DNA of 64,000 nt from Tubulanus polymorphus (lineage: Eukaryota; Nemertea; Palaeonemertea; Tubulaniformes; Tubulanidae), in assembly GCF_964204645.1 (NCBI RefSeq), contig NC_134027.1:9102485-9166484 (forward strand). Reading direction: 5' to 3'. The notes below the pieces were generated by a model that was not told the DNA's origin, made no database searches, and saw nothing but the letters and a program-made list of their open reading frames with translations. Of the stretch, positions 1,994 through 52,822 are shown in pieces. Numbering within the stretch: position 1 is the first letter of the stretch; each line of letters starts with the position of its first letter. The position numbers and the translations under genes were made by a program.

Positions 1994-2359
1994 TACCAAG
2001 AAAACGCCTCCAATGTCAACAGAAGTAAAAATTCAAGATGCGAAGTAAGCAATTTCCCGTCGAGATTTCCTCCCAGAAATAATATATATTTACTGGTAAA
2101 GCTAAACTAATTTCAAATATAATCTTGAATGAATTACACGAGTGTAATTATTTTGGTTTCTAAAAAATAAAATCAACTTTCTTTAAATCTCTCAAACCGT
2201 TTTTTTCAAAAAACGACCCGGCCCGGGGCATTTTGTTTGGGGCATGTTTATTGCCATTAATCAATTCGAATTCATCAAATTTATGAAGAAAATTAATGTC
2301 TGAATTTTGCAAAAAAAATAAAGATGATTGTTAAATTCATGAAGCGTTATCTTTCTCTA

Positions 2360-2987
2360 CAGATCCCGTGGGTCTTTCTCCATGGACCCTATGTTCCTGT
2401 CTCGACCCTTCAAACCTGTCTCTAGTCTCTACACAGTCCCGTGGACACTATGTTCCTGTCTCGACCCTTCAAACCTGTCTCTACTCTCTACACAGTCCCG
2501 TGGACACTATGTTCCCGTCTCGACCCTTCAAATCTGTCTCTACTCTCTACACAGTCCTGTGGACACCATGTTCCCGTCTCGACCCTTCAAAACTGTCTCT
2601 AGTCTCTACACAATCCCGTAGACACCATGTTCCCGTTTCGACCCTTCACACCTGTCTCTACTCTCTACACAGTCCCCTGGACACCATGTTCCCGTCTCGA
2701 CCCTTCTAACCTGTCTCTAGTCTCTACACAGTCCCGTAGACACCATGTTCCCGTCTCGACCCTTCTAACCTGTCTCTACTCTCTACACAGTCCCGTGGAC
2801 ACTATGTTCCCGTCTCGACCCTTCAAATCTGTCTCTACTCTCTACACAGTCCTGTGGACACCATGTTCCCGTCTCGACCCTTCTAACCTGTCTCTAGTCT
2901 CTACACAGTCCCGTGGAGCCTATGTTCCCGTCTCGACCCTTCACACCTGTCTCTACTCTCTACACAGTCCCCTGGACACCATGTTCC
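2360..2987 (+). repeat. 59-bp minisatellite array, left arm part 1
   Basis: Ten units at a spacing of exactly 59 bp (CTCGACCCTT at 2401, 2460, 2519, 2578, 2637, 2696, 2755, 2814, 2873 and 2932). The core is TTCCCGTCTCGACCCTTC, followed by CTGTCTCTACTCTCTACACA and GTCCCGTGGACACCATG. Units differ by a few substitutions. The array is cut by an insertion at 2988 and resumes at 3544. Confidence 0.95.
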
Positions 2988-3543
2988 TATTGGGGTGATA
3001 AATTAGTAGTTTGCATAGAGGGAGGGAAGCCAGAGTTCAGGGCAGTGGCTGAAGTTAGTAAACAACCTACGTAGATGCTTACGTCGCACACAAGACACTG
3101 AATAGAAGATAGGTGAAAGTGACGTGAGTATCTGCGTAGGGTTGCTGGTTATAGCGGCAGCCTTGAGCTCTGGTATGGCTAGGAAGTAAACAAGTAATAA
3201 ACTCGTGACGTATAACATATGTAGAAGTATACGTCACGAGTAACATGATATAAGATAAAAAGGGAGGGTCAGCACAGTAAGGGGGAGAGAGATGCTAGAG
3301 TGGCGGAGAAGCCTAAAAATACGAGCTGTAGGAAGGAATAAGAATTGTGCGGGAAAATAAAGAAAGAACGTAGACCCACGAGAAGAGTTGTTATTATTCC
3401 GGAGTCAGAGGGATATCACTTATCGGATTAATCGGAACCAACAACGACAACACGAGGGGAGAACGCAACGTGGCCCCCACAACAATTGGTTGAGAAACTC
3501 AACTCCACAACATTGTTGGAGAACCGAAAGCAACCCCACAACA
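2988..3543. mobile_element. LTR-like 556-bp insertion (probable solo LTR) in the minisatellite
   Basis: This block interrupts the 59-bp array between TTCC (2984-2987) and TTCC (3544-3547), a 4-bp direct repeat as left by integrases. The ends are imperfect inverses (TATTGGGGTG and CCCCACAACA). It has features expected of an LTR: a palindromic upstream part, a TATA-like GATATAAGATAAAAAGG near 3248-3264, a polyadenylation-type AATAAAG near 3355, and no ORF. A solo LTR is the simplest reading; a short non-autonomous DNA element is the alternative. Confidence 0.6.
3198..3242. promoter_or_regulatory. Palindrome with two CRE-like cores inside the LTR-like insertion
   Basis: AACTCGTGACGTATA is followed about 14 bp later by its inverse TATACGTCACGAGT. 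Each arm carries TGACGT/ACGTCA, the core of a cAMP-response/bZIP site. Position upstream of the TATA-like sequence suits an LTR enhancer. Binding is inferred. Confidence 0.45.
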
Positions 3544-3850
3544 TTCCCGTCTCGACCCTTCTAACCTGTCTCTAGTCTCTACACAGTCCCGTAGACACCA
3601 TGTTCCCGTCTCGACCCTTCTAACCTGTCTCTACTCTGTACACAGTCCCGTGGACACCATGTTCCCGTCTCGACCCTTCAAATCTGTCTCTACTCTCTAC
3701 ACAGTCCCGTGGACCCTATGTTCCCGTCTCGACCCTTCACACCTGTCTCTACTCTCTACACAGTCCCGTGGACCCTATGTTCCCGTCTCGACCCTTCACA
3801 CCTGTCTCTACTCTCTACACAGTCGTGTGGACACCATGTTCCCGTCTCGA
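3544..3850 (+). repeat. 59-bp minisatellite array, left arm part 2
   Basis: Five complete units and one partial unit in register with the first block (CTCGACCCTT at 3551, 3610, 3669, 3728, 3787; degenerate at 3846). Together with 2360-2987 this is one array split by the LTR-like insertion. Confidence 0.93.
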
Positions 3851-3859
3851 CATTTTTAG

Positions 3860-5575
3860 TGGACACAGGTTTAGTGAAGCCATTAAGATGGTGTTTCGTA
3901 TCTTGTATCAAGATATTTCGATATAAGTAATGATTTGTCATTCACGATTTGTCGGGCTACAACAGGCAGAAACAAGAAAATTAATTTTAGAAAATTATTT
4001 GACGCCTGAGAAAAAAGTGTAGAATTTCTGGGCTAAGCTAATGTGGAATTGCAAATTTGAAATCGAAGTTTTAAGAAATTTGGGGAATGATGAGATTTGG
4101 CGATTGGGTAGATGATACAGGTCTTCGACTCTAGTAGTGGTTTAAATTTTTTTATTGAAAATTCTCAATAATTGATCGCGAACTTGCGACCGACTTCATT
4201 TACTTATGCCTCTAAGCTGGTCTGCAACTTCATTGCCTCCATGGATGAAGAAAGAGCTCTTCTGATGTCTGCTTCATCATGACTTCGAGCATATCGTGTG
4301 GCCTAGCCAGCCGGCCCGGTCCCCGGGCCCGGGCCACGGGTTTGGCTGTCACTCGATATCCTAGAGTCTTGAGTCTGGGTGGGTTGAAGTAGACATTGTC
4401 ATTTAAAATAACATGCTTATGTTGTTCTGTATGAATTACCCGTGTGTCATGTATGTTGTATTAATTTATTTTAAAATTTGTATTTATTGAATTTGGGAAT
4501 TTTATCCCGGAATTTCAATGTAATAAGGATCAATAAAGAATTGAATTGAATTGTCACCTAATACACATGCCATCAGAGGACGCGGAGCCGTATATGACAG
4601 CTATGCTATTATAAATTGCTAATCTCACGAAACTTGCATACTCCTAATATCAAACATATTTTCACAAACGATTGAATATTGAAATTATATGTTTACACAT
4701 TTTCATATTGACCGCTTGTAGCCGCTGATGAAATTCACGCCGGCCCTACACACATCGTAGATAGCTTCGTCATTCCACCGGCATGCCCACGTCAGGGTCT
4801 GACTTTTATATCAGACTTCTGCATCGTGTATACATCCGCCATTTAACCGAATAATCCGATTTACTTATCATTTCTATTTATGCCTGCCGCTTCTGATATA
4901 ATCATACATCCTTTACTATTACAATACGTCTTCTAATGATATTTAATGCAATATAACATTTCGACGTTCAAATATAGGTCATTATATAATCACAGGAAGC
5001 CATTCTACATCTATGTCAATAATATTTTGCCAGACAGCTTGTTTGTGTACACATAAACCTGTGACGTTTTGCACATCGATTTACGGCTGTCGTTTGTAAA
5101 ATGACGCTGAATGGTTAGCATTGTTTAGGTTTCATAATGGTAACGTTTTATAAGGCGTCAAAAAAAAGAAAATTAAGATGAGAATGAAAGCCTTTCGTAT
5201 TGAAGACCATGGGATTCAGCCAAGGAACATTGATTATCGATTATCAAAAATCTAGAATTTCGACTATTAGGACAATGTCGGTTGTAATCTTCTGGTTCTT
5301 TGAGTTCGTTCTAATGAGTTTTCATTGTAATGTGTATGGTGCATATTCCTGAAAATTTCACTGAGTTTGATTGAAAATTGTAGAAATTTTCCTTATGTAT
5401 ACATGTATCAATATTCAGTCCGTCGGCATCGATTTTGTAGATTTCTCATCTTTTTAATCAATGAATATTCGACCAATTTTAATATTAATTTCCATCTTTT
5501 TTAAAGGCTCGTCCCACTGAGTGGAAATATTACAAGCCGATTAGATATGTCAGAGTATCCCAGAAACTGTCTAGA
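3860..5575. other. Central spacer of the fold-back element
   Basis: No credible coding sequence in six frames. Near 4295-4340 is a run of GGCCCGG/CCCGGGCC palindromes. At 4500-4553 the + strand has AATAAAG followed by GAATT-type tandem repeats, like the 3' tail of a degenerate non-LTR retrotransposon. The rest is AT-rich and featureless. Confidence 0.4.
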
Positions 5576-5579
5576 AACG

Positions 5580-6196
5580 GATGTGAAGGGTCGAGACGGG
5601 AACATGGTGTCTACGAGACTGTGTAGAGACTAGAGACAGTTTTGAAGGGTCGAGACGGGAACATGGTGTCTACGGGACTGTGTAGAGACTAGAGACAGTT
5701 TTGAAGGGTCGAGACGGGAACATGGTGTCCACGGGACTGTGTAGAGAGTAGAGACAGGTGTGAAGGGTCGAGACGGGAACATGGTGTCTACGGGACTGTG
5801 TAGAGAGTAGAGACAGATTTGAAGGGTCGAGACGGGAACATGGTGTCCACGGGACTGTGTAGAGACTAGAGACAGTTTTGAAGGGTCGAGACGGGAACAT
5901 GGTGTCCACGGGACTGTGTAGAGAGTAGAGACAGGTTTAAAGGGTCGAGACGGGAACATGGTGTCCAGGGGACTGTGTAGAGACTAGAGACAGGTTAGAA
6001 GGGTCGAGACGGGAACATGGTGTCCACGGGACTGTGTAGAGAGTAGAGACAGGTGTGAAGGGTCGAGGCGGGAACATAGGGTCCACAGGACTGTGTAGAG
6101 AGTGGAGACAGATGTGAAGGGTCGAGACGGGAACATAGGGTCCACGGGACTGTGTAGAGAGTAGAGCCAGATTTGAAGGGTCGAGACGGGAACATG
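5580..6196 (-). repeat. 59-bp minisatellite array, right arm (inverted)
   Basis: Eleven units, same 59-bp monomer as the left arm but reverse complemented (AAGGGTCGAG at 5586, 5645, 5704 and onward every 59 bp to 6176). It is continuous, with no LTR-like interruption. Confidence 0.95.
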
Positions 6197-6854
6197 GTGT
6201 GGGGAACAACGTGATCTAGAAATCAACGCGTCATAAAATTGAACAAGATCTTAATTTTTTTGCAAAATTTATACAATAATTTTTTTTTCATAAATTTGAT
6301 GAATTACATTTGAATTGATAAATGGCACAATGAAACATGTCCCAATTAAAATGCCGCGGGCTGGGTCGTTTTTAGGAACATGGTTTGAAGGATTTGAATA
6401 AAGTTGATTTTATTTCTAAGAAACCAAAATAATTCAACTCGTGTAATTCATTTGAAATTAGTGTAAAGCTTTTAAACAGTGAATATATTCTTCCCAGATT
6501 CTGGGAGGAAATTTCGACGGGAAATTGTTTTTCGCATCCTGAATTTTTACTTTTATTCACATTGGAGGTGATTTCCTCATTCGATCTTTTCAATCAAAAG
6601 TTTAAAGAATCTAATGAAGTTCTAAAATTGTTGGGAAGTGTCACTGATCGTTCTGTGAAAACCGAATCCGATACGCGCAAGTGTTATGGTTCAAATAATC
6701 GACTGTGGTGGCGCTATCGTACGGTAGGGTCGCGACGGGAACGGGTCGAGAGAGTAACGGGTCGAGAGGGGAACGTGGATAGCTCATATGCAACTCCTCG
6801 AATGACTTTGAAGTAGAAACAACAAAAAGGACGGCTCCGACATTGGATCGAAAA

Positions 6855-9344: not shown

Positions 9345-12262
9345 TATTATTATTTTATTATTATTATTAGCATTAGCATTATTATTATTATTATTAGCAT
9401 TACTATTGTTATCATTACCATCAATCTTCTTTTTTTCTCTAGGGGGCCTGAACGTCCTAGTGATTGTACAGCCTTTAAGGCTCTGTTCAGGTCCCTCATC
9501 ATCAATCTACTTATTTGTTATACATTTTATTTGTAATTATAATTGATGATGAAATAAATTACATTACATACCCTTTTCCACTGATTGCTTGTCATTCCGT
9601 TGAAAAATTAGATAGCTAGGCTGTTACCTTTTGTTTTGGAATTTTGCTTAAATACTGTTATGTAAAGCCTATTGGAACTGTTCTTTTTCAGTACTAGGTA
9701 TAATCACAGCAGATTTTGCCAGTGGTCTTGTACATTGGGGTGCTGATACGTGGGGCTCTGTAGACACCGCTTTTGGAAAGGTAATTACTTAACCCTTTCA
9801 GTGCTGACTAATTAATACCCTATAGTGCTGGAGAAAATTTGAAAATTCTAAAAAATTCCACCCTAGTGTGTTGAACAATGGGAATACCACTATAGCGCGT
9901 CTACACCGCAGTGCGGTGTATCGTTAGTTACTAGTATTTCACTATGTTTGACACTTTCTGCCATTTTTCAATAGAGATAATTACAAATTACTAATTACAT
10001 CAATACACCGCAGTGCGGTGTTCTAGCAAAATCCATCACTGATTTATACACCGCACTGCTGTGTAGACGCACTGAAAGGGTTAATCAATATGAATTATGA
10101 GGAATTTACTTTAACTCGTGTAATGAGTTTGGATTTTTGCAGCGATAACGTAGAAATTGTCCTGAAAGGTTGTCGGGGTAGCTCTTCTATTTCTCGAAAA
10201 AGAGTGGAAAGAATTATGAAAATTGAATTGTCGAAATAATGTAGTTAGTTTTATGCGAAATTTCAGGCTCTTATTCGTCCATTCCGCGAACATCACATCG
10301 ATCCGACGGCGATAACGCGGCACGATTTCATCGAAACCAACGGTGATAACTTCGCGCTAACTATATGCGCGACTGGTCTGCTCACGTATCGGTTTCTGAC
10401 CTGGGAGGCCGAAGAGTTGAGGGCGGCGTATCCGTGGCATTCCTATCTGTTTTTATTAGCTATCTTCGTCAGCTTAACCAATCAAGTAAGTTGCTGTGAA
10501 CAGCTGTGATTTTAATTGAGAAAATGTCTTTTGTTGATTGCGTTAGTTCTGTTGCCTTAAGCGGATCTCGATCTTCTGCCTGGAAATTTTACAAACTATT
10601 GAAAAAGCCCTGAAATTGGGAGTGGAGAAAGTCCTTGTATCAGGGCAAAAAATCAGTCGTGGTCATGTGTCAGTCATGGGTTTTCAATACAGGTGTGAAA
10701 TTTTGAAGAATTGAACAGGGAACGCACATATCTGTCAAATTTATCAGTATTTGTTGTGGAGAGGAACACCACTTACGCTACATTTAACCTATAGACCCTG
10801 TATTTAATTCGATGTCTGTGGAATTTTTTGGGACATAAAGAATCAATTGCTTAATAGTCATAATGTACACATGCAATTGTCTTGAACTTTGAAATTTTGG
10901 TGCGAAATTCTATTATTATAAACACGTTATTAGATAATTTTTCGTAGTTCAAAGATTGCTATGCTAACCTTGACTGCGCGAATATCATTCTCGTGGATAT
11001 TTGCACTGTGTACTTGCATAAATTGCTATTTGTCATTAAAACTGATGTTTGGTGTTTGATTCGATTTGAACTTTGTTCTTTTGCCAAATGTTCGAAAGTC
11101 CACAAAATTTATGATTCAGGATTCGGGTCCACAGTTGTCTGATATAATTCTTATGGAGTCAAAATAAGTTCATTTTCAATCAACCTGTCCACAGTCACGT
11201 CTTAACTCACGGATGTGGAACATGATCTGGAAAATAATCTTATAATTGTACAGGGTCCTGTTTTGGGAATATTATAAAGTCGAAGTCCATTATACCGCCT
11301 GCCTATATAATGCCATGTTCATTCGTTTTATTGCCTGAAAATCGTGTTCAACTAACCGGCTGTGTCTAGAAACATGTGAATTTAGTTGGTTATAATGCCA
11401 TCCGCCATATGCCACGATTTATCTAGTACGTATTGGTATTAAAATGAATAACGGGTTTCGTTAAAACCCATTATTAATTATTGAATATCGTCAGTCTCCG
11501 TACGCTTACCGGTAGATGTATTGATTTACTATTCACACGTAAACGAGATCGACTTTTTCTACCGGTACTTAAATCGATTTCCCGATTGGTGCAATTGACT
11601 GACAGTCGGTCAAACTTCACCTCACTTACACGTCATATCCAGCCATCTGTTATAATGCGGCATTATGCCCAGGGCCAAGTTTCACAAATAGGTTTAACTC
11701 TTAAATCGATTTATTTTCTTCATTTATTCAGTTTATCTTAAATTGATTTACGCCTTAATCCTTATTGTGAAACTGGGCCCAGGTTGTTATAATGCCCAAC
11801 GGTTCGGATGGTAGCGGTAAAATTGACTTTGACTGTGCATTTTATAAACATTTTACGGTAAAATTAATGAAACTTCCAAAAATTTCTCCTCTAAGTTTTT
11901 TGGGTATCATTGTTCTTTGTCATGACTGTGCAACCTGTGAACTATGGCTTATATGCCATTCGAGGTGAATTGAATGAATAGATAAGCTCGTCCATTTTCA
12001 GATACACAAGTGGTCCCATACGTATTTCGGCTTGCCGCGTTATATCACGATATTTCAAGATCTCCACATAATCTTACCACGTCGGCACCACCGCATACAC
12101 CACGTTGCGCCGCACGAAACGTATTTCTGCATCACGACCGGCTGGTTGAACTATCCGCTGGAGTTCATACGATTTTGGCCGACGTTGGAGTACCTTATCG
12201 AACGCATAACTGGCATGAAACCACGATCTGATGACATGAAATGGGCTCAAAAAACCCAATAA
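6855..12262 (+). CDS. PEDS1: Plasmanylethanolamine desaturase (TMEM189/PEDS1)
   Basis: Five exons: 6855-7056, 8154-8273, 9692-9780, 10267-10485 and 12002-12262; total 297 codons, 296 aa, slightly longer than human at the N-terminus. The enzyme introduces the vinyl-ether double bond into plasmanylethanolamine in the ER, the last step of plasmalogen synthesis, and needs cytochrome b5-type electron supply. The protein shows the family's histidine-rich di-iron motifs in order: [55 protein letters not shown], and the C-terminus [13 protein letters not shown]. Membrane segments lie in exon 2 and late exon 4. The start ATG has a good context (AAAAATGG); the codon at 6843 is TTG, so it was not used. 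The N-terminal ~50 residues are Thr/Ser-rich and variable. Introns host several MITEs. The assignment is essentially certain. Confidence 0.96.
7097..7233 (+). mobile_element. Short retroposed element with 18-bp target-site duplication
   Basis: GAATTACATAATTTGATA occurs at 7079-7096 and again at 7234-7251, bracketing 137 bp that begin AGATAAAAACCCACTATG and contain ACGTTTCGATCTC. An 18-bp duplication is typical of target-primed retrotransposition (SINE or LINE tail). The AAAACCC...CGTTTCG motif pair recurs near 35355-35420 and 38465-38560. Confidence 0.6.
8385..8922. mobile_element. Long-hairpin MITE in PEDS1 intron 2
   Basis: Two arms of about 240 bp are near-perfect inverses: from AGTCTATTTATT through GAGACCTGTTTTTCTGGGAT, the block GCCAAAAATCGCGGACAACA, and AAATCCTCCATTTTGT, to a central unpaired loop of roughly 50 bp near 8630-8680. 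There is no ORF. A diverged single arm of the same family lies at 15578-15690. Confidence 0.85.
9185..9425 (+). repeat. ATT trinucleotide microsatellite
   Basis: Long imperfect (ATT)n with interspersed AGC/GAT variants, in PEDS1 intron 2. Confidence 0.95.
9440..9575 (+). mobile_element. Probable 3' end of a non-LTR retrotransposon
   Basis: A block with TACAGCCTTTAAGGCTCTGT (self-complementary) is followed by an AT-rich segment and an AAATAAATTACATTACATA tail, the usual layout of a LINE 3' UTR with a short tandem tail. It directly follows the ATT microsatellite. No coding sequence remains. Confidence 0.45.
9793..10080. mobile_element. piggyBac-type MITE in PEDS1 intron 3
   Basis: TTAA duplicated at 9789-9792 and 10081-10084; ends CCCTTTCAGTGC and GCACTGAAAGGG. 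TTAA targets with CCCTTT-type termini are characteristic of piggyBac elements. Inside are two copies of the palindrome ACACCGCAGTGCGGTGT and a third variant. 288 bp, no ORF. Confidence 0.85.
11668..11783. mobile_element. Short MITE in PEDS1 intron 4
   Basis: Inverted ends CCAGGGCCAAGTTTCACAA and TTGTGAAACTGGGCCCAGG enclose an AT-rich core of about 80 bp. The ends resemble those of the element at 21166-21302 only loosely (GGGCCA[G/A]TT). Confidence 0.65.
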
Positions 12263-15699: not shown

Positions 15700-16430
15700 T
15701 TTTAGGACATTTTTGATAATTTGATACTCAATGTAGCGAATAATAAGTCTTTTTTCTTGATCTTAGAATAGAGATTGCCCCTGTGTCAGTTGGTTGGAAG
15801 ATTTCGTTCGATTCGTTTTGATTTGCAGTAGTGTCCCTTACAAGACCATCACACCTGCCGGGAGCAGAACAGGCGGTTTGATTTTGAAATCGAAAATCGA
15901 AGTACAGATAGTCGTGTGATGATTGGCGGTCTCGAGTTTACGGAATTTTTTTGTTTAAATCGAAATACGTAATTGGAAATTTCGGTTCCGGTACATTCAA
16001 ACAATCTTCCAACCAGCCCGAATCGGCAAGTGACTGATCTCGAACAATACGGTTTAGCGTACAGATAATGAAGGACAGTCCCCTGAAGTTCGTCATCATG
16101 GGGTTCCACTGCGTTCATAGCAGGCATCCACAATCCGTGTATACAATCTCTCGTTTCTAGTTCACTTTTTATTAGGAAATAAAGCCTTGCCTCCAGGTCT
16201 GGACGATCAAACGTTATCAGAAAAGAGTAAGAAACCATCCGAGGGTTGGCTCCAAGTTGCACGTTGATACTGATATTTGTTGGTGCACTGGTGATGCACG
16301 CGTGATGCCTTAGATTCTCACGTTGTTTTTGGTTGTAATTTATGTATACGAAAGTGTGTTATAACATTCTCTCATTAGCGCTTATAATTTTGTTTTAATC
16401 GAATTGATTCGCGTGATCCGATCATCGAAC
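15700..16430. other. Unassigned sequence; a 137-codon minus frame not accepted as a gene
   Basis: A minus-strand open frame at 16262-15849 begins with GTG rather than ATG, has no recognisable domain and no flanking splice context. TTGGTTGGAAGATT at 15790 and AATCTTCCAACCAG near 16002 form an inverted repeat, suggesting another decayed element. Confidence 0.3.
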
Positions 16431-16431
16431 T

Positions 16432-16744
<313 letters not shown>

Positions 16745-17149
16745 ACATAACACTAGGGCTCACCGATATTTGAACAATAAAATTATATCGTCATCACTGT
16801 GATTGATGCCAGCAGCATTTCTGTGTTTTGTCTTATTTTATTCATCGAATTCAGTGCTATGAGGATACCGAGGAAACCATCGTGGACGTCCAGGGAGAAA
16901 CACACTAGAGGATCGCAGCTATTTAGTTCAAAAAACATGACTGTGCTGCGTAATGTATCTATTTTTCTGAAGAAACTAAACGAGCTTTTTCAACTCTAAG
17001 TAGTAAACTCCGAATTTAAACCGGAACCCTAAAACAGTAATTTGTATATATGTATGTATGCATGTGACAATAATGTATTTTCTTTTCTGTGCTCGAAATT
17101 TTGTTAAAAAAATGGAGAAATAAAGATAATAATAATATTTAAAAAAAAG

Positions 17150-23076: not shown

Positions 23077-26000
23077 CTATTTCTTTCGTTGTAAGAAGCC
23101 CATTACGGCTTTGAAACATTCCTCTGATTGCCATCGTTCTGTGAGTCTCACGCATTCAGCCTTGTTAACGCGGTGTAGAATATCTCGGTCGGCATCGCGA
23201 ATCAAAATCTTTGAATATTTCATACTCTGAAATGTACAATATCATAGTCTTTGTTGGTACCGAGTGCATTTAAACGAAGATCAATATCGTACCTGGTATG
23301 TCACGTCAATGACTACTTAGGGCGTAATCGCATAGACTTACCTGCTTCGGGAATCCTGCACGCTCTGCTAGTTTGGCTTCCACTTCTCTGTCGAATGAAT
23401 CATGAGGGAAGACTTCGGTCACTAATCCAAGATCACAAGCTTCCTTAGCTGTAATCATTTGGTTGAACAGCAAAAGTTCACTGGCCTAAAAAAACGATCA
23501 TCCATACAGTCAATTCTACTTATTCTGTTTCTGATGGACCGACGATTTCGGTAAGGTACATTTCTATAAATGCAGCATTTTTAAAGATGTTTATTTCTTC
23601 ATCAAATGAGTGTTGTTGATACGGAGTTTGTACTTTTTCCTGGGCCGATTTTTTATCGATATTTGAAATCTAATCTTTATTTGTCGAAGCAACACTTGCC
23701 TGGCTTTCGTAATATCAAGATATAATGATAATATGGAAGACGGCTTACAACACTACTAATACAGGATATGTTGTTTTTTAACTACTAACCTTGGCGATAC
23801 CCATGAGTTTTGGGAAAACATAAGACGAACATCCTTCTGGCGATTGTCCCAGTGCACTGAATGGCGTATGAAATGTAGCCTACAAATATAATGAAGACAT
23901 GAGTTACTCATTTCGATGTTTGTCCAGCTTTTGATAAATTCAACACAGTACAATGTGCATAGAAATAGTATTCATTTCCAACCAGCAGAGCCAATATGAC
24001 GCTTTTTAGGTTTCAATACAGTCGAAGTAAATATTTCTACAGTGGAACCCCTGTTTAACAACCTCGGATGCAACAATTTTTCAGATATAAAAAACCTAGA
24101 ATTTTGTCCCAGATATGGCAATATCAATTATTTTCACACTGGATATAACGAACTATCAGTTACAACAAACAAATTTTTTGGTTCCCTGAAGCTCATTGCG
24201 ACGAGGTTCCACTGTTAAGATGATGGGTAGACCTTATCAGTAGCGTATACTGCATCGAATAAGCCGAGCACGGTAACACTGATTCCAACTGCTGGACCGT
24301 TGATTTTTGCGATTAATGGTTTAGGGTGATCTATCATTGAAGCGACGAATCTCCTAAAAATAAGAGAAATAATAAGTTACCAGTAAGGAATATTCCATCT
24401 GACCCCTTTGTTTCATTCTGTTGCAAATTCAACGAGGCACCATGTGCGAATATATTCAAAAGGACACTTTTGTTAAGTGAAGTAAAGTTTGCAATTACAG
24501 TACACAATCATTTCTTTCACTGCATGGATGTTGATATCTTGGGAAAAACGAAAGCTGAATACACATACTCTAATATTTCTGCGCCCTCTTCTGCCTTAGC
24601 TTTTACATTATCTGGTGTGATATTGGCAAAGTTTTCTAAATCATTACCGCTACAATAGAAATCGCCTTTACCTAAAATGATTACAAAATATTTCGATATC
24701 TAACTCTCACTGGTGGTTAGAACAGTACACTGGGTTATCCCAATTCCTACGAGATGTGTCCTATGAGAATGCCAACAATCATTGTCAATATGAAGCCTAT
24801 AGGTTGAAACCTACTTTCCTCACATTCTTCAGACATGAACAAGATCGGATGAAACTAAGATGGCCGCTGACTGCATGAAAATCAACTGATCCAAAAAGCT
24901 GTTTAACTCAAATTTCAATGCAATTCAACAAACCATAAAGAAGCAAGAAGACGCTTACCAATTCAGTACTGAATGACTTTTTTTGGAACAAAAAATGGTC
25001 ACCTGTTATAACTGTAATGGCTGTTTTAGTGTCATTAGCTGCATCCTGTAATGCCTGAGTCCATTGATCATACATCTGTGTAAATAAACTAGACTAGTAA
25101 AGCGAATTGCGTAAAGAATTCACCCAGTAACCTTTCGGGTTATTCCTCAGAAAGTCCTTTGCATACAAGCACTAAATACATGAATAGGTAACTCTTACTT
25201 GAGTGGTTATTGCATTCTTTTTTGCTGGCCGGTTTAGAGTAATACGAAATTGATTGTTTTCAGCTGTGACTTCGATGTCTTGATACTTTGAAGAATCTCC
25301 GCTTTTAGTGGTTGTAGCAGCAGCTGGTTCTTCAGATCCGGCCAAATCATTCACGAGTTTGATATAAGCTGCCATTGCATCGTCCTGGAATAAGAATTAA
25401 TTAATGGAAATCAAGGGACATAACTGACTTAAGTAGAATATCTTACCTTGGACATGTCACCCAAGTTATTCCAGGCTTCCCATTTTACTTTTCCCACAAA
25501 ATCCATCATGCCTGGCTTCTTCTTCGTATTTTTGCCTTCGGTGGCCTGTACAAAAAGACTGCATGTAATATTACACCATTACAATAATCTCTAAGGCAAG
25601 GCTCGATTCATACAGTTCTAGAGAGTATCTTCTCAGGATACAAGCTCCTCCAGTGTCGGTATCCCATGTAAAACTTTAGTATCCCTATTTGCCTTTAAAT
25701 TTCTTTTCACGAAAATACAGTAAAGAATTGAATCAATATGATCCTCTTTATGGTGAAATCAGAAAATTTTTGTATCCTTCAGGATAATTTCATTTCAATA
25801 TTTAGTATCTCAACAAAAAATCTCAGGATACTGTCAAGATTGAGCCCGGTTAGGGTGCCAGTAGGTTAGAAATTGTGAGTGTGGTAATTTGGCCAACCTG
25901 TTTGAAAAGTGAATAGATCTGCAGTTTAACGTCATTTCCGGGATCTTCTTGAAGCGTGTTCAGGCGATCTTTGGCAGCTTGGAAATCTTCATTAATACCA

Positions 26001-26786
26001 CGAAGCACATAACTTGAGCAGAAACTACGTCTAGCCAACCCTGCCAACTGTGGAACAGCACGCCTACTTATCCTAAAATGAATACCAAAAAACACAAGTG
26101 GTTAAGAAACGACCTTAAAAAATTCTGCTTCAGTTTTTAGTTAGGTCTACTCAACGCAAATCTACTACATTTTGCATGTAATGTTTGCATACTCGCAACA
26201 TATCATAATGCCATGATGGACTAGGGATCGTTGGGCCAAATGCCCCAAAAGCTTTTAAGGTTAGAAACATACCAGGTATGTACTACCAATAGCTAGGACA
26301 CCTGACGTCCTTTAAAGTTTAAATAGACTTGTACTGGTGTACTGTTGCTAATACACCAACACTCAACAGGGAAAGGCCGGGTGAATACAGTGAAATTAAG
26401 TGATGGACTGTGCTGACGATCTTAACACTGTAAGGTTAGAGTAGCTTAGATCGTCCAATACTGCATGATTTTAGTTACAGTATGAAATGTAACTTAAATC
26501 ATCCAGTATGACGTTCCTCACCAACCTCTGGGCTCTGTGGTTGCTTGTAAAACATATAGCTGTCAATAAAATTGCATTGAATTTGACTACTCGGTTATAT
26601 TTCTACCGATCAGGGTCTGGATATGATGGAGATATCAAGTCAATTTCTGACTTCAAACAAATAAACCTATCGAGGGCTGTGTCCCGCATCGACTGACAAC
26701 AAATAAAACGAGCGTTATTACCCGTTCAGATGCGATACATGTCGCAGGATTACACCTCCCGAAAGTAAACCGGCGGAAGCTGCCAT
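23077..26786 (-). CDS. ECI2: Enoyl-CoA delta isomerase 2 (ACBP + crotonase), mitochondrial
   Basis: Ten exons: 26786-26755, 26072-25898, 25545-25447, 25384-25199, 25075-25003, 24671-24569, 24353-24233, 23879-23790, 23485-23342 and 23226-23077; 390 aa, close to human ECI2. It shifts cis-3/trans-3 double bonds to trans-2 in enoyl-CoAs during oxidation of unsaturated fatty acids. Residues 1-35 ([16 protein letters not shown]...) are a basic, Ser-rich mitochondrial leader. Residues ~36-120 form an acyl-CoA-binding domain ([44 protein letters not shown]). Residues ~137-390 are the crotonase fold with oxyanion-hole segments [10 protein letters not shown] and [10 protein letters not shown] and the catalytic Glu278 in [10 protein letters not shown]. 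The C-terminus is LQRKK, so a peroxisomal SKL-type signal is absent. It is divergent to CDYL with a 262-bp gap. Confidence 0.95.
24038..24217. mobile_element. pogo/Tigger-type MITE in an ECI2 intron
   Basis: CAGTGGAACCCCTGTTTAAC and GCGACGAGGTTCCACTG are inverted ends of a 180-bp AT-rich element, 16 bp from the exon boundary at 24233. A partial relative lies at 15479. Confidence 0.7.
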
Positions 26787-27048
26787 CTTGACAGCTGGTA
26801 GAGTATACACAGGGAAGCGAGTGTGAGATTGAATTTCGATTCAAAAATCTTACACCGTTTGCGAGTGTAGAAATAACAAATGATAGCAGCAGAATTTACA
26901 TATGATTTTATTTAAACGCAAAGATAAGATAATTAATTGATGTAAAACAATTTTAGGAAAATAATGGCTCAAAAAGCGGAATCCTTTTACGGAATGCGCC
27001 CCGGACTATATAATCCCGTGACGTCATTTTCGTGAAAATCTCTATACA
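26787..27048. promoter_or_regulatory. Shared divergent promoter region of ECI2 and CDYL
   Basis: Only 262 bp separate the two start codons. A perfect palindromic CRE/ATF site TGACGTCA is at 27019-27026, 23 bp before the CDYL ATG, and TATATAAT at 27007-27014 precedes it. The CRE may lie in the CDYL 5' UTR. Transcription start sites are not known. Confidence 0.6.
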
Positions 27049-30000
27049 ATGGAGGATGATCCGAGTAGGGCTGCTGCTGAAACTATTTACGAGGTACGCG
27101 TAGCACACGCGCATTTTCGCTTCGTCGTTGACTGCTGGTGTTTTTATTCTATTCCATATCAAATTGCCCAGCTTTTATCATTGGTGTTGGTATAGCTATA
27201 TACGTCTAATTCTACTAAATAATCGCTCGCCGTGTGCATTTTGATTTGGCTCTTTTTGAGATAAAACTTTTTTATCAGTCATTAATAATAAATCATGAGA
27301 TTGATTAGATTAGATCCGCTCTGTTGATTTTTTTTAGCTGTCTCCATCAAATAATGTTTTCGCAGAAAATGACATTCATTTCACATCCATCCACTCATAG
27401 CGACTTGTCAATTTATTTACTTTTATTTTAGTGAATTCCTACTCACTATATTATTATCCTCTGTATTTGAAAGGGCCTGTTGCCGTTGGCCTTCTTCATT
27501 GAATATATTTTTGTACCTCATTATTTTCAGCATTTAACTAATGAACAGAGTTTTTCTTTTTAATTTATTCACGCTTTATCATTTGCCAACTGCATGTGCT
27601 TTCTGCTGTTTACATTATTTTTCCATCTTTGTGCATTAGCCTAACTACCTTTTCGCTTGAAGCATTACACAGCCGATGTTCGCTGTTCTTAACATTTTCC
27701 AGGCTGTTTCCTATCAAACCACACGAATGAATTATTCAAGAATATGATGGACGAACATTAGAAATACGTAGAAGAGCTCATTTAAACTTTGTTTCTGGTA
27801 AATAGCACAATTTTCTTACAAAGTTTTCCGAGTTGTCGCCTCTGTTCAGTATTTTCTCCGTTTCTAAGCTAAGCATTTTGCGAAAGGTTTTATTGAGTTC
27901 GTCTCTTATTACTAATAAAAGAAAAAAAAGGAACTTATCGTTGAAAATTACATGCCACGCCCAGACTACACCTATAACTCAGTGTACACAATAACCTTAA
28001 ACCTAGATAGAAATGATAAGCATTTCCACAACCACATGATTTAGCATTATCCTTTATCACGCACTGCATGCATGTTCATTATTAATCTGATTCCTACCGT
28101 ACTTACAAAGCTGATGTCACATATGTCCATTTGTGCAATAATTAGAGGAATAGTTCATTAATGAGAGACCCAACCTTGGTGTCATGAAAAAGTTAATTAG
28201 ATGCCTCCATTATTTGATATTAACAGTACCCCCCGTATAATATACCATACCACTGACTAAATTGGTAGGGCCTATATGAGTTGTCTTGTCAGTGACTAAG
28301 CTGTGGTAAAGTTTCATGATTGGACAATGTCACAAACACTGCATGATTATACAATATTATAAAAAGCTTAAGGATAGGGTCATTAAGATAAGGAGTTGTG
28401 TTTCATGTTGTACACTACACTTTCATTCAATGAGATGCCATTTAATTTTCTATCAAAAACTGTAGTATAAATCTTCGGTAATGCCACTGTTTGGACCAAT
28501 GAAAATGATTTAATCTATTCTTAATTTTCTTGTGAAAAACTGGATTGATTTTCCAACAAGTAAATGAATGTGACTTGTACAACATTTATATAGACCTAGT
28601 TCAGCAGATAATAGGCTTAGATCTTGTTTTTTGGGTCTCAAAAATTATGTCATATCTGCAAGATATAATTGAAAATGTGACACCATGAATATCTGGGCAG
28701 GTCATATTGGTGTCAGATCCTATCTGCCTTTCGGAATTATTCTAGTAGACCTGTGAACATATGTGAATGGGCTAACATTAATAAATTTCACCTTTGCATT
28801 ATCATCATATCATTTATCATTGAAATGGGCTGCGTGGTTTCTTAACATTTCATTGGCTAACTTTTTAGGCATTTGTTTGGTATGGCAGTGCATGTCTGAA
28901 CATAAAATATATATATATATATTTCATCTATGTGTTTTTAATGTAATCACTTTCTTTAGATTGACGACGTGCTCCAAAAGCGTATTGGCAAACTTGGTAA
29001 ATTGGAATATTTGATTAAGTGGAAAGGCTATGAGAAAAAGTTTAACTCTTGGGAGCCGGGAGCTTCCTTGTTGAACTGTGGAAACGTGCTGAAAAAGTTC
29101 AAAATGGCGAAAGCCTTGTCGATTACGAAAACTGCCGGCCAAACAAAGGCTAAACAGTTAAAAGTAAAAGCACTGAAAGCTGGCATGGTTACGAAAAGCT
29201 CCATTCCTAAAAAACGCAAAATCATACCGACAACAAAAGCTAAAGGCACAAACATTATTAATTCGATTGCGAAACGAGTGCCGATGAATAAACTAGCAGG
29301 ACTTTTACCGGAGAAAACGAAGAAAGCAATAGCAAAAGTTAAAAAAGACACTGTGAAAAATAATGTTGTAGTCAATACAAATCTAGAGTCTCATGTTAAA
29401 GAAGAGGTTACGACAGATGTAGAACAAGTCACCTCGGCTAGTGTTGATGATCTACAGTCTTTAAATAATAGTAATAATAATTTGGATAGTGTAGATGGTA
29501 GCTTCATCTCCATTGAGGAAACCTCTTCAGAGGCTGAAGATGTAGGTGATCACAAAAAAATCAGTGATAATAACGCGAGTAGTATTAGTGGCAATAAACC
29601 TAGTGCTAAATCATTTGCACAGAAGCGGGCTTTGAAAGACAATCGAGCACGCTATAAGTTGAATCCGGCTGCTCTGCGCGAGTTAACGAGACTTGTTGCC
29701 GATGAAAAGGGTAATGCAGATGCCCTGAAACAGATAAACAAACTGGCGAGTAGCACGAAATCGGGATGCGTCAGTTTGAAAGCGTTAACCGAGCTCGTAA
29801 CGAAAGAGGCGGAACTGAAAGAGCGCACTCGCAAACGGAAGCGTGAGGCAAATGCCGCTGCAGCTCTAGCCGCGAAAAAGTCGAAGCCAGCAATGGCCAC
29901 AGCTCGCAAGAAGAAACCTGCAGCCACTGTCGGGTCGTCGGCAAAAAAGCAGCTCACTGGTCAGGCACAGAAACAAAAGTCATCGCCACCTAAGAGTACT

Positions 30001-32386
30001 GCTCGGAAGAAGGATGTTGCTCAGGATGCAAAATCGAAAAAGAAGAAGTCCCCAAGCAGTGCAGCATTTCAGCAGTCCAATCATGATAGAACGACTGCGC
30101 TAAAACTAGGCATGCCAAAAACAGAGGTTGTCAAACCAGGTAATGTTGTTTAAAACTTCACAGTACTTTTGAAGTTGTAGATGCAGAAATTGTATAGAAT
30201 ATGTCTGAGAATGACTACTTAGCCTTGAAATTAAGAGTAAGTAGATAGTAAAAAGAATTGTAACTTCAAAAGTTTTAAACTTACTGGGTTTGCAGGCACA
30301 GCCAGCTTATTTGGTGATTACAATACCAAACTGACCTGCCTGGTGACATGGGTCACTGGTATTTGTAGTGAGTGCTTTATTATAGAAAATGTTCTGGATT
30401 TTTGTGATTTTGTAGTACCTCGTACGACACACGCGAAAACTGGTCCTTCAATGATGCATATCCCGACTCCTACTGAGTTCAGCGCGTTTAAGACACCAGC
30501 TACGACCCCGGCTACAATTGTCCATCAACCCCAGATACTCGTCCTCGACAACGACGCCACTGCTGCCTACTATTCCGATCTGCCGACATGCACACTTCCT
30601 GTTGCGCCAATATTCCCGAGCAGTCCGACGACGGAATCATATCGTTCGCTCGTAATGAACTTGCCGGCGAAATTGCAAGCGAATCGTTTGGTGCGGCGAC
30701 GCAACAGCAAAGAGGAGGATGAAGAGATCATCCAGCGTCGATTGAGCGTTCGGCAGAGTGAAAGTGCATTTAAATACAAGGAAATCGTTGTGAAAAAGTT
30801 TGACAGCTACACCCAAATTTGGCTGTTTACGAACACAAAGCTCGGCAATTCGTTGAATCCTCAGGTAACCAAATTAAAGTCCATGTCCCTCTGTCGTTGT
30901 TGATCAAGATTTGAATGTCGATCATGCGTTTTGCCAATTGCCCACATATGAAAACTTATTCTTTTTCATTTTAATTCGTCAAGGAAAACTTGATACGCAT
31001 CTTCAGAAATATTGTCCTTTTGGTTAATGTCTTAGTTCTTGTGCTGCATGTTATGAGTTGCTTTCTTCTAAAGGAGAATAGAAGTCGTCAATTGTGTACC
31101 ATTTCAAGCTGTTCGTTCCAGGTTTTCCAAGAACTTATCTCGGCATTTAACAATGCTAAGTACGATGAAAGCTCGCTGGTGATGTTAAGCGGTACTGGTA
31201 GTCTGTTCTGCTCCGGAATCGATTTGGCGTATCTCATTAATTCGGAAAATCGCAAAAAAGCCGCTGAAAAAATGGCAGCAACTCTTCGGTAACTATATTT
31301 ACCACAGTCCACCGAATTGAAATATGGCTCAAAGTATTGAGAATATTATGGACATAGGAGTGGATATGTACCGTCTACTTAAGGTTGCAACACAAACAAG
31401 ATCTTGAGGATCGTAGTCTAGATATTGTTGAAAATTTTTGCTGTTTCGATCTTTTAGGGATTTTATACAAACACTGATAGCGTTTCCTAAGCCGGTTGTC
31501 GCCGCGGTGAATGGGCCGGCTATTGGTCTCGGTGCTACTATCTTGCCATTATGCGATGTCGTGTATGCCAGTGACAAGGCATCGTTCTATTTGCCGTACG
31601 CTCGAATTGCTCAAACTCCTGAAGGCTGTTCGTCATTCACTTTACCATCAACAATTGGAATGGCTATGGTCAGTTTTGTCGGGTTCATGAAAATATGCAC
31701 TTTTGCCTATTACCAAATGGCTTTTAAAATCTCGTTTGACTTGACTCTATCTGTTATTTCCATTTGTAAGGCTAATGAAATGTTGTTTGGGGGTCGAAAA
31801 CTGACGGCGATGGAAGCGTATCAAAGCAGTTTGGTATCACAGGTGTTTTGGCCAACAACCATGATGCAAGAAGTTGTGCCAAGGGTTCAACAGATGGCAA
31901 GTCAGTCTGCGCGAGTAAGTATTACTTAACCCCAATATCGTGCTCGAGTTAGAGCTGCCAACAGTTCCTGATTTTTGGTATTTGTTACTCTTTTAAGAAA
32001 TACGGATTTGATTTGTTTGATGCATACAGAAACTGAGTTACAGTTACTGAGGGTCTTACTTTTGATTACTGATTAATTTGAACATTTTCTTTCATATTTC
32101 AATAAAGTGTACTGAAAAAAAATTCAATTTGTTACTGATGGCACTTCAGAGGTTGGCAGCACTAGATATACTGCATAGCATTGAATGTCGGGTGCAAATT
32201 TTCACTCTTGCTTTGGTTTTTTTTTAGGCATTGGAAGCGACCAAACTGATGATACGTAGCCATATCAAGGCCAAACTGGATTATACGAATGATTCTGAGT
32301 GCAATATGTTGAAAGATTGTTGGTTGACGTCCGAATTCTACACTGCAGCAAAAATCTACGTCGAAGAGGAGCAACATTTTCTTTGA
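27049..32386 (+). CDS. CDYL: Chromodomain Y-like protein
   Basis: Seven exons: 27049-27093, 28960-30139, 30416-30864, 31122-31288, 31458-31668, 31771-31914 and 32228-32386; 784 aa. CDYL proteins read methylated histone H3 tails and act as nuclear co-repressors; the C-terminal crotonase-like domain has been linked to crotonyl-CoA hydration and CoA binding. Residues ~13-62 are a chromodomain (IYEIDDVLQKR, LEYLIKWKGYEKKFNSWEP) with the aromatic cage candidates Tyr14, the Trp of IKWKGY and the Phe of KKFNSW. Residues ~65-520 are Lys/Ser-rich and disordered with several nuclear signals (PKKRK). Residues ~527-784 are the crotonase fold (SLFCSGIDLAYL, NGPAIGLGAT, AQTPEGCSSFTLP). Introns 3, 4, 6 and 7-side boundaries match ECI2. 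The second exon is unusually large (1180 nt). Confidence 0.94.
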
Positions 32387-49400: not shown

Positions 49401-52400
49401 CTAGTCTGGATGTCGAGAGTGGCGGCTCACCATCCTGATATTGCCAGTTTGGTAGATATCGGATATTCGTTCGAAGGAAGAAAACTTCAACTACTCAAGG
49501 TATCTGTCAACTAAATCTACTTCAACAAGTACAAATATCTCTGCCGTAATGACAGTGTATTTTGCAGCTGATTTCGCGCCGAGTCGTTACCGCGGAATCG
49601 ATCTAAAAACATTAGTTTTAACCACGTATTACCACACAGGAGCAAGACTTGGTCGATAGTGAAAGATTCTACTATAGCCAAGGATTTTGAAATTATAACT
49701 TTGAAAATGAATTACTGTTGCTAAAATCGTCGATTTATACATATGACCCAATTTGACTTCGGCTGGCAGATCATGTCTATGCACATCCTCACTTGCCAGG
49801 GCTTGATTGCCTCCCGCGAAGCCAACACAAACACTGGCCGCAAGCCCTTTATTGGTCTATTGCATTACCCCAAGATTTCTTGGGCGGAGAGGTTGTCGCA
49901 AAGCGGCCACCAGTCTATATATTAAGCCAATCAGATGCGTTGTTTTCCACCAGACGATTCGCTTACACATCTGATTGGCTAGATAAATAGTTTGGTGGCC
50001 GCTTATTGGAAACATGTCCGCCCAAGAAATCTTGGGCAGGGTGAGCTTCAGCGGGAGGCAATCAAACCCTGGCAAGCAATGATGGTCTAATCCCGAGCAC
50101 CTGATTTGGTGTTTTTGTTCGAATCGTTACTCATCACTCCACAACATCCCACTTAAACATCGTATTCCTATGTCACCTCTGTCGTATAGATTGGCAGTCG
50201 TTTGCACGAAGATAAACCAGCGATATGGGTCGATGGTGGTACACATGGCCGAGAATGGATTGCGCCGGCCACCGCTTTGTTCATAATTGACCAGGTAATC
50301 AATTGAGCTTTACGTTATGTCTTTGTTTCCCCACTCCATTTCCAATATCGAAATGGACTGCAAAAAAACCTTCTGAATAATCCTCCAGCTTCATTCATTT
50401 ACGTAATACAATTAAACTTGATATTGATGGGCTAGTGGGCGGGATAGCGACCTAGATCCCAGAGACGCATGACTCAGGACTTTACAATCATGATAGATGT
50501 GAACATTTAACCAATCGTTCTTAACACATATATTTCCTTATGCCCACAGTTAGTTTCCAACTACGACAAGAAAAGAGACATCAAAGAACTGGTGGACATT
50601 TATGATTGGTACATTATGCCGGTCTTAAATCCAGACGGTTACGAGTTTTCCCACTCATCGGTAAGGTCCTGAAATTCCAGCTACACAGTTTATAGTTTCC
50701 TATACTAGACAACAAGAACAACAATCGGTATTTGAATATTTCAAATGATCTAACATTGATTGTTCTCAGAATCGTCTGTGGCGAAAAACGAGGAGTTTCA
50801 CTTCAGGAAGTAATTGCAGAGGAGTCGACGCGAACAGAAATTTTGGATACAAATGGAAAGGTGAGAGTAAAGTGTTATACTGTATCGATGATTCTTGCGT
50901 TTCATTGAAATTAGCTTGCAAGTTATCAACTTACAACGGACCTCTGACTGAGTATCTTACTGTTCCTGTTCGTTCTAATGCATAGAATGCGAACGGCGTA
51001 GTTACGGAGGGCGACAGTGCTACAGCGACAACCCTTGCGAATCGATTTATGCCGGTCCTCGACCGTTTTCCGAAAAGGAAACCCGCGCCAAAAGGGACTT
51101 CCTGCTGTCAATAAAAAGAAACGTGAAGATCGTATTCAGCTTGCATTGTTACTCGCAGTTGTGGCTTACACCATGGGCGTACACGAAGACGCAACCAGAA
51201 AATTATAAAAGACTTGTAAGTCATTTTACGATTATAAAGATCTTTAAAACACAAAATATTGTTTGATGGGCTATGACAAGCTTATATTTGGATCACAATT
51301 TCTTCGTATTTACAGCTAACTGTTGCAAGGGCTGGTATCAGAGCTATTAGATTGAAGCATAACAGAGTCTACAACGTTGGTTCACCTGCCAGACTTTTAT
51401 GTAAGTTTTTACACAGAAAATCCCAATTCAGGCTCCACGATACATGGTATAAACGCTTTTGGTTAGAGGTTTAAGATATCGCCCGTCTTACTTTAAACTG
51501 CTTCCAGAATATTAAACTTGATGTAATCAAGTAACTTATTAGAATAAGACTTAGAAAATTGATACATTGTTTCTCATTTCTGGCGAGTTGACCCGGCCGG
51601 CCGCCTATCTACCCTGCACACCTTTTGAAAAATCATGATCAATACCATAACTATGGTGGCTGATAAGGGCCATAGCGTAAAATTCCTGGTATGTAAATGA
51701 GGGCGCCAGAACGCCAGAACGCCAAAACGAAAAAAAACGTCAAATTTTCTCTGAAAGTCCGTTTTTGCGCACCAAAACAAAGAATATTCCGTTTTGGCGC
51801 CCCGCCAAAACAAACATCCATTTTGGCGCCCCGCCAAAACAACGAAAAACGTCGAAATTCCTCAGATGCGGCATATATAGAAATGAACTGTCATAAAGAA
51901 TGTTATTGCAGTTTACAAAAATGACCCGGCTGATAAAGAGATTAGAAACGAGGTATCATTTTTTCTTAGCATAGAGAAATTTTGACAAGATGATTCTTTC
52001 ACAGATGCAGCGGGCGGAAGTGCCCTCGATTGGACGTGGGGTACGTTGAAGGCCGAATATGTTTACACACTTGAATTACCCGACCAAGGTCAACTTGGAT
52101 TTCTTCTTCCGGTCGAAGCCATATATCCCGTAGCCGACGAAACCTTTGAGGGAATAAAAGCTGTCGCTCACTTAACGTCGCCTGAGTTCAAAACGACCGC
52201 CACCCTGAAACCAAATAACGGCCCGCTACACGGATCCAACAGTGGCAGAATCACTGGTCCAAACGACTCGATCGGTGATTTGTCCAACTCGAAAGGCAAA
52301 GGCATTAATGCTGATTCAACGAATGATCCTAATGGTTATCGCGTTGTAGATTCTTCTTTAAACGAAATAAACTCTGAAAATGTGAACGTAAATGCTTTAC

Positions 52401-52822
52401 CCAACGAAAGTCCGCTTGTGGAGGGCTTGGAGGAAATATTTTCACCGAATCAAATGTCTTCGAATGAAGTAACCGAAGATGTTGCTGAGAACAATGCTGT
52501 GGCCACACGGCCACCAGTTGCTGCTGGACAGATAATCGAAGCTATTGAACATGATTTAAACAGCATTAAAGACACGAATAGTAGATCGAATAACGCTTCA
52601 AGCAGGGCTAGGTTCGACGCGTTGGAATCTAACATGGCTATCGTGTCGGACATGGCCGCCGCTCATAGACCGCCTCCTTACGAAGCCAGTGTCGAATCTC
52701 GGAATAGCTCAGTTCCTACAGACGCGCAAGAAACCGCTACAAAATTCAACGAATCGGCCGTGTCTGACACGGAAACGATTTCGACAACGGAAATCGAAGA
52801 CTTTGAAGTCATTCACCACTGA
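37450..52822 (+). CDS. M14A carboxypeptidase zymogen with long C-terminal tail
   Basis: Eleven exons: 37450-37538, 45905-45986, 46260-46405, 48971-49115, 49398-49499, 50190-50294, 50550-50660, 50770-50860, 50986-51215, 51316-51400 and 52005-52822; 667 aa. A secreted zinc exopeptidase. Residues 1-20 are a signal peptide; ~30-105 an activation propeptide (GYKVFRVFTKSP); RTKR125 is a furin-type release site. The catalytic domain (~126-457) has the HxxE zinc motif (GGTHGREW), DANRNF (substrate-binding Asn-Arg), the third zinc ligand in SLHCYSQ, a Tyr248 equivalent (LLYAAGG) and the general-base Glu in YTLELPD. The residue equivalent to 255 appears to be Leu, favouring hydrophobic C-termini (A-type). 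Residues ~458-667 are an Asn/Ser/Glu-rich disordered tail that ordinary A/B enzymes lack. Exon 3 has a CAGCAG tandem acceptor. The first intron is ~8.4 kb. Confidence 0.93.
38465..38633. mobile_element. Inverted-repeat element with CGTTTCG motif, in carboxypeptidase intron 1
   Basis: GTAAAACCCTCTATACAGAATTT is mirrored by AAATTCTGTATATAGCGGG and TTTTAC. The centre carries GACGTTTCGAACTCTC and GATCATCGTC. ATAATTTGAA flanks both sides. Relative of 7097 and 35319. Confidence 0.6.
44299..44445. mobile_element. CAGGGCCGTACC-type MITE, copy 1
   Basis: Ends CAGGGCCGTACCTAGCA and TACGGCCTTG; internal GGATATAACAATAATATTTG. Same family as 54851-54978. CAGGG/CCCTG termini resemble hAT-type elements. 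A G10 run lies inside. In carboxypeptidase intron 1. Confidence 0.65.
48640..48840 (+). repeat. Degenerate tandem repeat, AATTATTTTC monomers
   Basis: GAAATTATTT/GAATTATTTTC recurs every 20-35 bp and the block TTATTTTCACTTACGAATA is duplicated exactly at 48778-48820. In carboxypeptidase intron 3. Confidence 0.6.
49792..50076. mobile_element. Long-hairpin MITE in carboxypeptidase intron 5
   Basis: CTTGCCAGGGCTTGATTGCC plus TCCCGC, then CCCCAAGATTTCTTGGGCGG, GCGGCCACCA and AGCCAATCAGATG are mirrored in order by CATCTGATTGGCT, TGGTGGCCGC, CCGCCCAAGAAATCTTGGG and GGGAGGCAATCAAACCCTGG. About 285 bp, ending 114 bp before exon 6. Confidence 0.85.
51690..51850. repeat. GC-rich hairpin repeats in carboxypeptidase intron 10
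   Basis: TTTTGGCGCCCCGCCAAAAC occurs twice (about 51792 and 51821), a perfect 8-bp stem with a short loop, after three AACGCCA units near 51710-51730. Function unknown. Confidence 0.6.

Follow-up and report, generated by a model that had tools for sequence, protein, structure and literature searches.

How did a chromatin regulator built on an enzyme fold come to lie beside the gene of a fatty-acid enzyme? The question is raised by a 64,000-nt stretch of the genome of the nemertean Tubulanus polymorphus (RefSeq assembly GCF_964204645.1, contig NC_134027.1, positions 9,102,485 to 9,166,484; the whole stretch is called the window below, and positions are counted from its first letter), in which the genes for enoyl-CoA delta isomerase 2 (ECI2) and the chromodomain Y-like protein (CDYL) stand head to head. 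In our analysis we established both gene models, the introns shared by the two genes, the sister relation of their crotonase domains, the age of the pair relative to the human lineage and its linkage to other genes of human 6p25-p24. We conclude that ECI2 and CDYL are very probably sister paralogues, which would have originated from a local inverted duplication and the capture of a chromodomain before spiralians and chordates diverged and would have been neighbours since.

Gene models and protein products

The ECI2 gene (23077..26786, minus strand) has 10 exons (26786-26722, 26072-25898, 25545-25447, 25384-25199, 25075-25003, 24671-24569, 24353-24233, 23879-23790, 23485-23342 and 23226-23077) and encodes 401 aa; CDYL (27049..32386, plus strand) has seven exons (27049-27093, 28960-30139, 30416-30864, 31122-31288, 31458-31668, 31771-31914 and 32228-32386) and encodes 784 aa. 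Read from the DNA, the frame is open across the whole of each model, and all introns, nine of nine in ECI2 and six of six in CDYL, have GT-AG ends. The ATG codons, at 26786 and 27049, are 262 bp apart, just as an earlier note on this DNA had stated.

The ECI2 product carries the Pfam domains ACBP (residues 50-124) and then ECH_1 (157-401), the order of acyl-CoA-binding and crotonase domains expected of ECI2. Its best PDB chain is human ECI2 (297 bits), followed by the CDY family (160 bits) and by the next chain with 129 bits. The crotonase domain contains SPEGCSS with the isomerase glutamate, the residue that has the catalytic role in this enzyme. By eye, the N-terminus appears mitochondrial; the C-terminus (23077-23091) reads QRKK and is without an SKL-type peroxisomal signal. 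Mammalian ECI2 has such a signal at its C-terminus.

In the CDYL product an N-terminal Chromo domain (residues 14-63; 49.8 bits, cut-off 25.1) is combined with a C-terminal ECH_1 domain (548-781; 136.4 bits, cut-off 27). The best PDB chain for the protein is human CDYL (259 bits), with ECI2 at 182 bits and the next chain outside both families at 111 bits. For the chromodomain the nearest solved structure is CDYL isoform b (2dnt, 7n27) with 53 bits, a small margin over the 47 bits of the top-scoring non-CDY chain. The chromodomain holds Y14, W36 and Y39, which we take to be the methyl-lysine cage positions, and the intron after YE within it presumably lies at the point from which the human CDYL isoforms a and b differ.

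The oxyanion-hole residues of the window's CDYL are I591, L638 and E669, the last of them, in TPEGCSS (exon 31458-31668), being a Glu in the position of the isomerase-type acid, as in ECI2 and in the fly homologue Hipp1. The corresponding residues are given in print as L, L and D in human CDYL and I, L and E in fly (PMC6385973). Human CDYL thus has Asp where the window's protein has Glu; Glu, which ECI2 and Hipp1 also have, is probably the older state and the human Asp derived. Drosophila Hipp1, described in the same paper as a CDYL homologue with a crotonase domain, resembles the window's CDYL in its I, L, E set but differs from it in having no working chromodomain. CDYL is characterized there as a reader of methylated H3K9 and H3K27, a co-repressor and a crotonyl-CoA hydratase (PMC6385973); with the residues present, binding of methylated H3K9/H3K27 and hydration of crotonyl-CoA are predicted for the window's CDYL as well.

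Introns shared by the two crotonase domains

In a common crotonase alignment all four introns of CDYL in this domain (4/4) coincide exactly, in column and in phase, with introns of ECI2, which has six in the domain. The shared introns are at alignment columns 36, 104, 181 and 234, with phases 0, 2, 0 and 0, respectively. The first separates TQ|M in ECI2 (25076..25198) and PQ|V in CDYL (30865-31121); the second, IL(E)|R (24354..24568) and TL(R)|D (31289-31457); the third, GIAK|A (23486..23789) and GMAM|A (31669-31770); the fourth, KQ|S (23227..23341) and AR|A (31915-32227), the ECI2 introns being on the minus strand and those of CDYL on the plus strand. The last two introns flank an exon of 144 nt in both genes (23342-23485 and 31771-31914). 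Two introns of the ECI2 domain, ITG|KG (24672..25002, phase 1) and TDK|ATF (23880..24232, phase 0; both on the minus strand), have no counterpart in CDYL. The earlier note had listed the four matching boundaries with their phases, the equal exons and the two introns missing from CDYL; the gene models and the alignment reproduce the four boundaries exactly and agree with the rest. Spliced alignment to human ECI2 and CDYL, with sequences drawn from PDB alignments, served as a second check and placed the internal boundaries identically across both crotonase domains.

The chance that four randomly placed introns would all meet the six introns of ECI2 is 1.4e-9 if 720 sites are available and 3.8e-6 if there are 100. 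As a control we compared seven crotonase genes of this genome (ECI2, CDYL, ECHS1, AUH, ECI1, ECHDC3 and HADHA), making 21 pairs: there was no exact coincidence of introns in the 20 other pairs. HADHA was aligned over its crotonase part only, and the names of the genome's own paralogues are provisional, having been given by inspection and against human guide sequences. N-terminal introns that were short and unsafe (four of 10 in AUH, three of seven in ECI1, one of six in HADHA) do not enter these counts; in the intron list none of them has an exact match in another gene. The counts also exclude an ECH1-like gene, whose crotonase occupies a single open frame, and the partial model L052 (C3:4246799, ECI-like), of which the middle only was modelled and whose three introns, by eye, miss the shared four. 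The ECH1-like gene (L054, C7:15907000-15914000; named by eye) has its crotonase in a frame of 352 aa and is possibly a retrocopy.

Crotonase tree and the age of the duplication

The tree was built from 28 crotonases: the window pair, three human PDB chains, six paralogues from the same genome, four human guides and 13 bacterial relatives. ECI2 and CDYL formed sister clades with support 99/99; the window's ECI2 grouped with human ECI2 (99/96) and the window's CDYL with human CDYL and CDY1 (100/98). With six long or odd rows dropped, the support for ECI2 plus CDYL was 100/98. Among the families sampled CDYL is thus not nearer to any other crotonase family, in line with the kinship that the earlier note had proposed.

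Forcing the window's ECI2 and CDYL to be a private pair made the tree worse by 56 log units (p-AU 7.8e-5), and a grouping of CDYL with ECHS1 was rejected (p-AU 2.2e-5); rejections were weaker for ECI2 with the bacterial group (p-AU 0.028) and for CDYL with the bacterial group (0.010). Identity of the window's CDYL to human CDYL is 50% versus 33% to the neighbouring ECI2. As the private pair is rejected and each gene groups with its human counterpart, the duplication, judged by these sequences, is older than the split of the spiralian and human lineages.

Ten bacterial crotonases (L056-L065; nine of the 10 from Actinomycetota, several of them Acidimicrobiales) adjoin the ECI2 plus CDYL clade with support 96/92. 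They are the nearest non-animal group found, but a bacterial one; the search used query-picked motifs, and nearer kin may have been missed by it. Among viral contigs 73 stretches had motif matches and none was a relative.

The relation of the two families is itself in print: in a table of 2009 (PMC3091328) PECI (ECI2) and CDYL are listed as paralogues with a duplication dated to 'Animals', before animals diverged. These are the same two families and the same pre-animal duplication; the table entry does not deal with introns, gene order or the chromodomain. A paper of 2018 (PMC6385973) gives three splice junctions common to fly Hipp1 and Cdyl, and one shared by a PECI-like fly gene and Cdyl. 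Among the matches listed in a search of the full-text literature, whose scope leaves most subscription journals outside, no title or abstract dealt with ECI2-CDYL gene order. New here are the match of all four introns, the compact head-to-head pair and the linkage evidence for the same place as in mammals; the finding is well supported and does not constitute a new kind of system.

Linkage of the pair in mammals and fly

In a pig table ECI2 is placed at 2,421,054-2,446,319 and CDYL at 2,846,090-2,966,240, with no candidate gene listed between them and RPP40 next (PMC11639466). A human OMIM list gives, down its column, PRPF4B, ECI2, CDYL and RPP40 (PMC7479479). Only candidate genes or OMIM genes are entered in these tables; within that limit they agree with the statement in the earlier note that the genes are near neighbours on human 6p25. 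ECI2 and CDYL are thus adjacent in a protostome, the one whose genome holds the window, and, on the printed pig coordinates and human list, in deuterostomes. The mammalian genes are likewise neighbours, their proteins are orthologous by the tree, and linkage markers of the mammalian region share a chromosome here; the distance differs, being about 400 kb in pig versus 262 bp in the window.

We looked for the human 6p25-p24 markers SSR1, GMDS, WRNIP1 and the FARS2-type FDX-ACB domain, and all matches were on the window's contig (C3), which makes up 10.4% of the genome. Distances from the pair are 2.7 Mb for GMDS, 6.7 Mb for WRNIP1, 7.5 Mb for the FARS2-type match and 14.3 Mb for SSR1. For GMDS there were seven matches, each an exon piece scoring under the cut-off set for the whole protein of that family, and each on C3; FDX-ACB had two matches, both on C3 (1.62 and 21.84 Mb), of which the stronger was taken as FARS2. 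The six other modelled crotonase genes are on C4, C4, C3, C8, C2 and C7; therefore C3 does not attract everything. Apart from the pair itself, the 138 open reading frames of the window included none that could be recognised as a human 6p25 gene (10 proteins, the pair included, by Pfam and the rest by eye). Gene order was scrambled around the pair while ECI2 and CDYL stayed together, and they have probably been neighbours since before worms and mammals parted.

Several points weigh against an old duplicate pair that was never separated. Four human rows of the tree are approximate guide sequences, the tree is without ECHDC1, ECHDC2, HIBCH and EHHADH, and a meeting of long branches was flagged in both trees, in the reduced one at the stem of ECI2 plus CDYL. 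For the human genes the divergent orientation (ECI2 minus, CDYL plus) is presumed; WRNIP1 and SLC22A23 presumably are out of place in the human OMIM list, which then does not follow the map strictly from end to end. For RPP40, the next gene in pig, a Pfam search of the genome gave no match, as was the case in 14 of 14 control genomes, so that this negative is uninformative. The pig genes are 400 kb apart, and the linkage comparison covers the window genome, mammals in print and a fly figure legend. In that legend Hipp1, the CDYL homologue of the fly, has CG3634 and CG3618 as its neighbours; neither gene is among the crotonase genes that the paper lists as similar to HIPP1 (PMC6385973), so the pair looks broken in fly. 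As to whether the genes are linked in other animals, a check that the earlier note had suggested, they are neighbours in mammals and, as far as the legend goes, apart in fly.

Alternative explanations

It is possible, though we consider it doubtful, that selection has acted on a single bidirectional promoter and has so prevented the two genes from parting, an acyl-CoA enzyme and a chromatin factor using crotonyl-CoA being co-expressed from it; this is compatible with the inherited duplication that we prefer. The spacer between the two start codons (26787..27048, 262 bp) is a candidate promoter for both genes. Its CpG observed/expected ratio is 1.5 (12 CpG) versus 1.12 in the window, and a CRE-like palindrome, TGACGTCA, is located at 27019..27026, 22 bases before the CDYL ATG. 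The CpG excess and this site would fit a two-way promoter. Still, the spacer is poor in G+C (0.35); TGACGTCA occurs three times in the window versus 1.05 expected, and at least three times in 11 of 100 window shuffles; and the pig genes, 400 kb apart, can do without a common core promoter. Just as tentative is a larger picture, in which CDYL would have been born at this locus and would have stayed there for over half a billion years. The inverted copy of the gene of a fatty-acid enzyme would have acquired chromodomain exons, and a promoter common to both genes would have kept them head to head, switching the acyl-CoA enzyme together with a chromatin factor that lowers histone crotonylation.

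It is improbable that the copies of an old duplication were dispersed and that chance then reunited the genes, once in this lineage and once in mammals. The fly pair, which looks broken in the legend (PMC6385973), would agree with such a history, as would the fact that local order is otherwise not common to the genomes, the markers being 2.7, 6.7, 7.5 and 14.3 Mb away; yet these two genes would have had to come together twice independently, and a common linkage group makes inheritance simpler.

Parallel gain of the four introns at favoured sites is a much less probable account. Favoured zones may exist, as near but non-exact coincidences (within 6 nt) were seen eight times, spread over five of the 20 other pairs. 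Exact agreement of position and phase in four of four introns, versus none in those 20 pairs, argues for inheritance, and so does the sister relation of ECI2 and CDYL by sequence.

We can practically dismiss a lineage-specific event, a CDYL-like gene copied from the neighbouring ECI2 in this lineage alone and unrelated to vertebrate CDYL: seen in a single genome, adjacent genes with common introns would agree with it, but the window's CDYL is closer to human CDYL than to ECI2 (50% versus 33%), the window pair is rejected as a clade (p-AU 7.8e-5), and CDYL is the best PDB match for both the chromodomain and the crotonase.

Other features of the window and genome

Elsewhere in the window Pfam identified a cytochrome b561 domain (378-920, minus strand) and an exon with a lipid desaturase domain (11978-12262), which we take to belong probably to plasmanylethanolamine desaturase (PEDS1). 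Repeats reading STLYTVPWTPCSRLDP fill 2335-3930 and 5630-6250, on opposite strands in the two blocks, and a long (TA)n run at 16388-16750 is open in several frames. By eye, there are carboxypeptidase-A-like exons at 50749-52822 (plus strand) and, adjoining ankyrin-repeat-like exons, reverse-transcriptase-like frames of a non-LTR element at 57813-59823 (minus strand); the frame 57813-58472, reverse-transcriptase-like by eye, had no Pfam match. Outside the window, we observed a run of ten Hox genes (L009-L017 and L020) on one strand of contig C6 (5.32-5.63 Mb), with a Post1-like gene on C7; judging by class signatures, the run includes Lox5-, Lox2/Lox4- and Post2-like genes, which marks the genome as spiralian. 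For COX1 a search of the genome found no match.

Proposed origin of the pair

The history that we favour would have begun with an intron-bearing, ECI2-like crotonase gene, duplicated locally and in inverted orientation before the spiralian/chordate split. One copy, ECI2, may have retained or acquired the acyl-CoA-binding domain and continued as an enzyme of fatty-acid metabolism; the other would have been joined to chromodomain exons and become the chromatin co-repressor CDYL. In mammals as in this spiralian, the two genes would since have stayed side by side on one ancestral linkage group.

The earlier note had let CDYL arise from a duplicated ECI2-like gene that was combined with a chromodomain. 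Sister crotonases (99/99), a split before the spiralian/human divergence and neighbouring genes in mammals, as far as printed, agree with this, and the proposal is supported in part: CDYL may have come from ECI2, or both genes from a common parent. In a search for a chromodomain donor (PF00385) 150 of 938 genome candidates were scored and 149 matches listed, many of them with identical scores or long open frames and repeat-like; among six short pieces that were read, no host gene had the same YE| intron.

The Glu kept in the window's CDYL raises the question of whether the early protein still worked as an isomerase or hydratase when it moved to chromatin. With this pair the origin of an enzyme-fold chromatin regulator becomes concrete and testable: its gene order, its introns and its residues can be followed through the animals.

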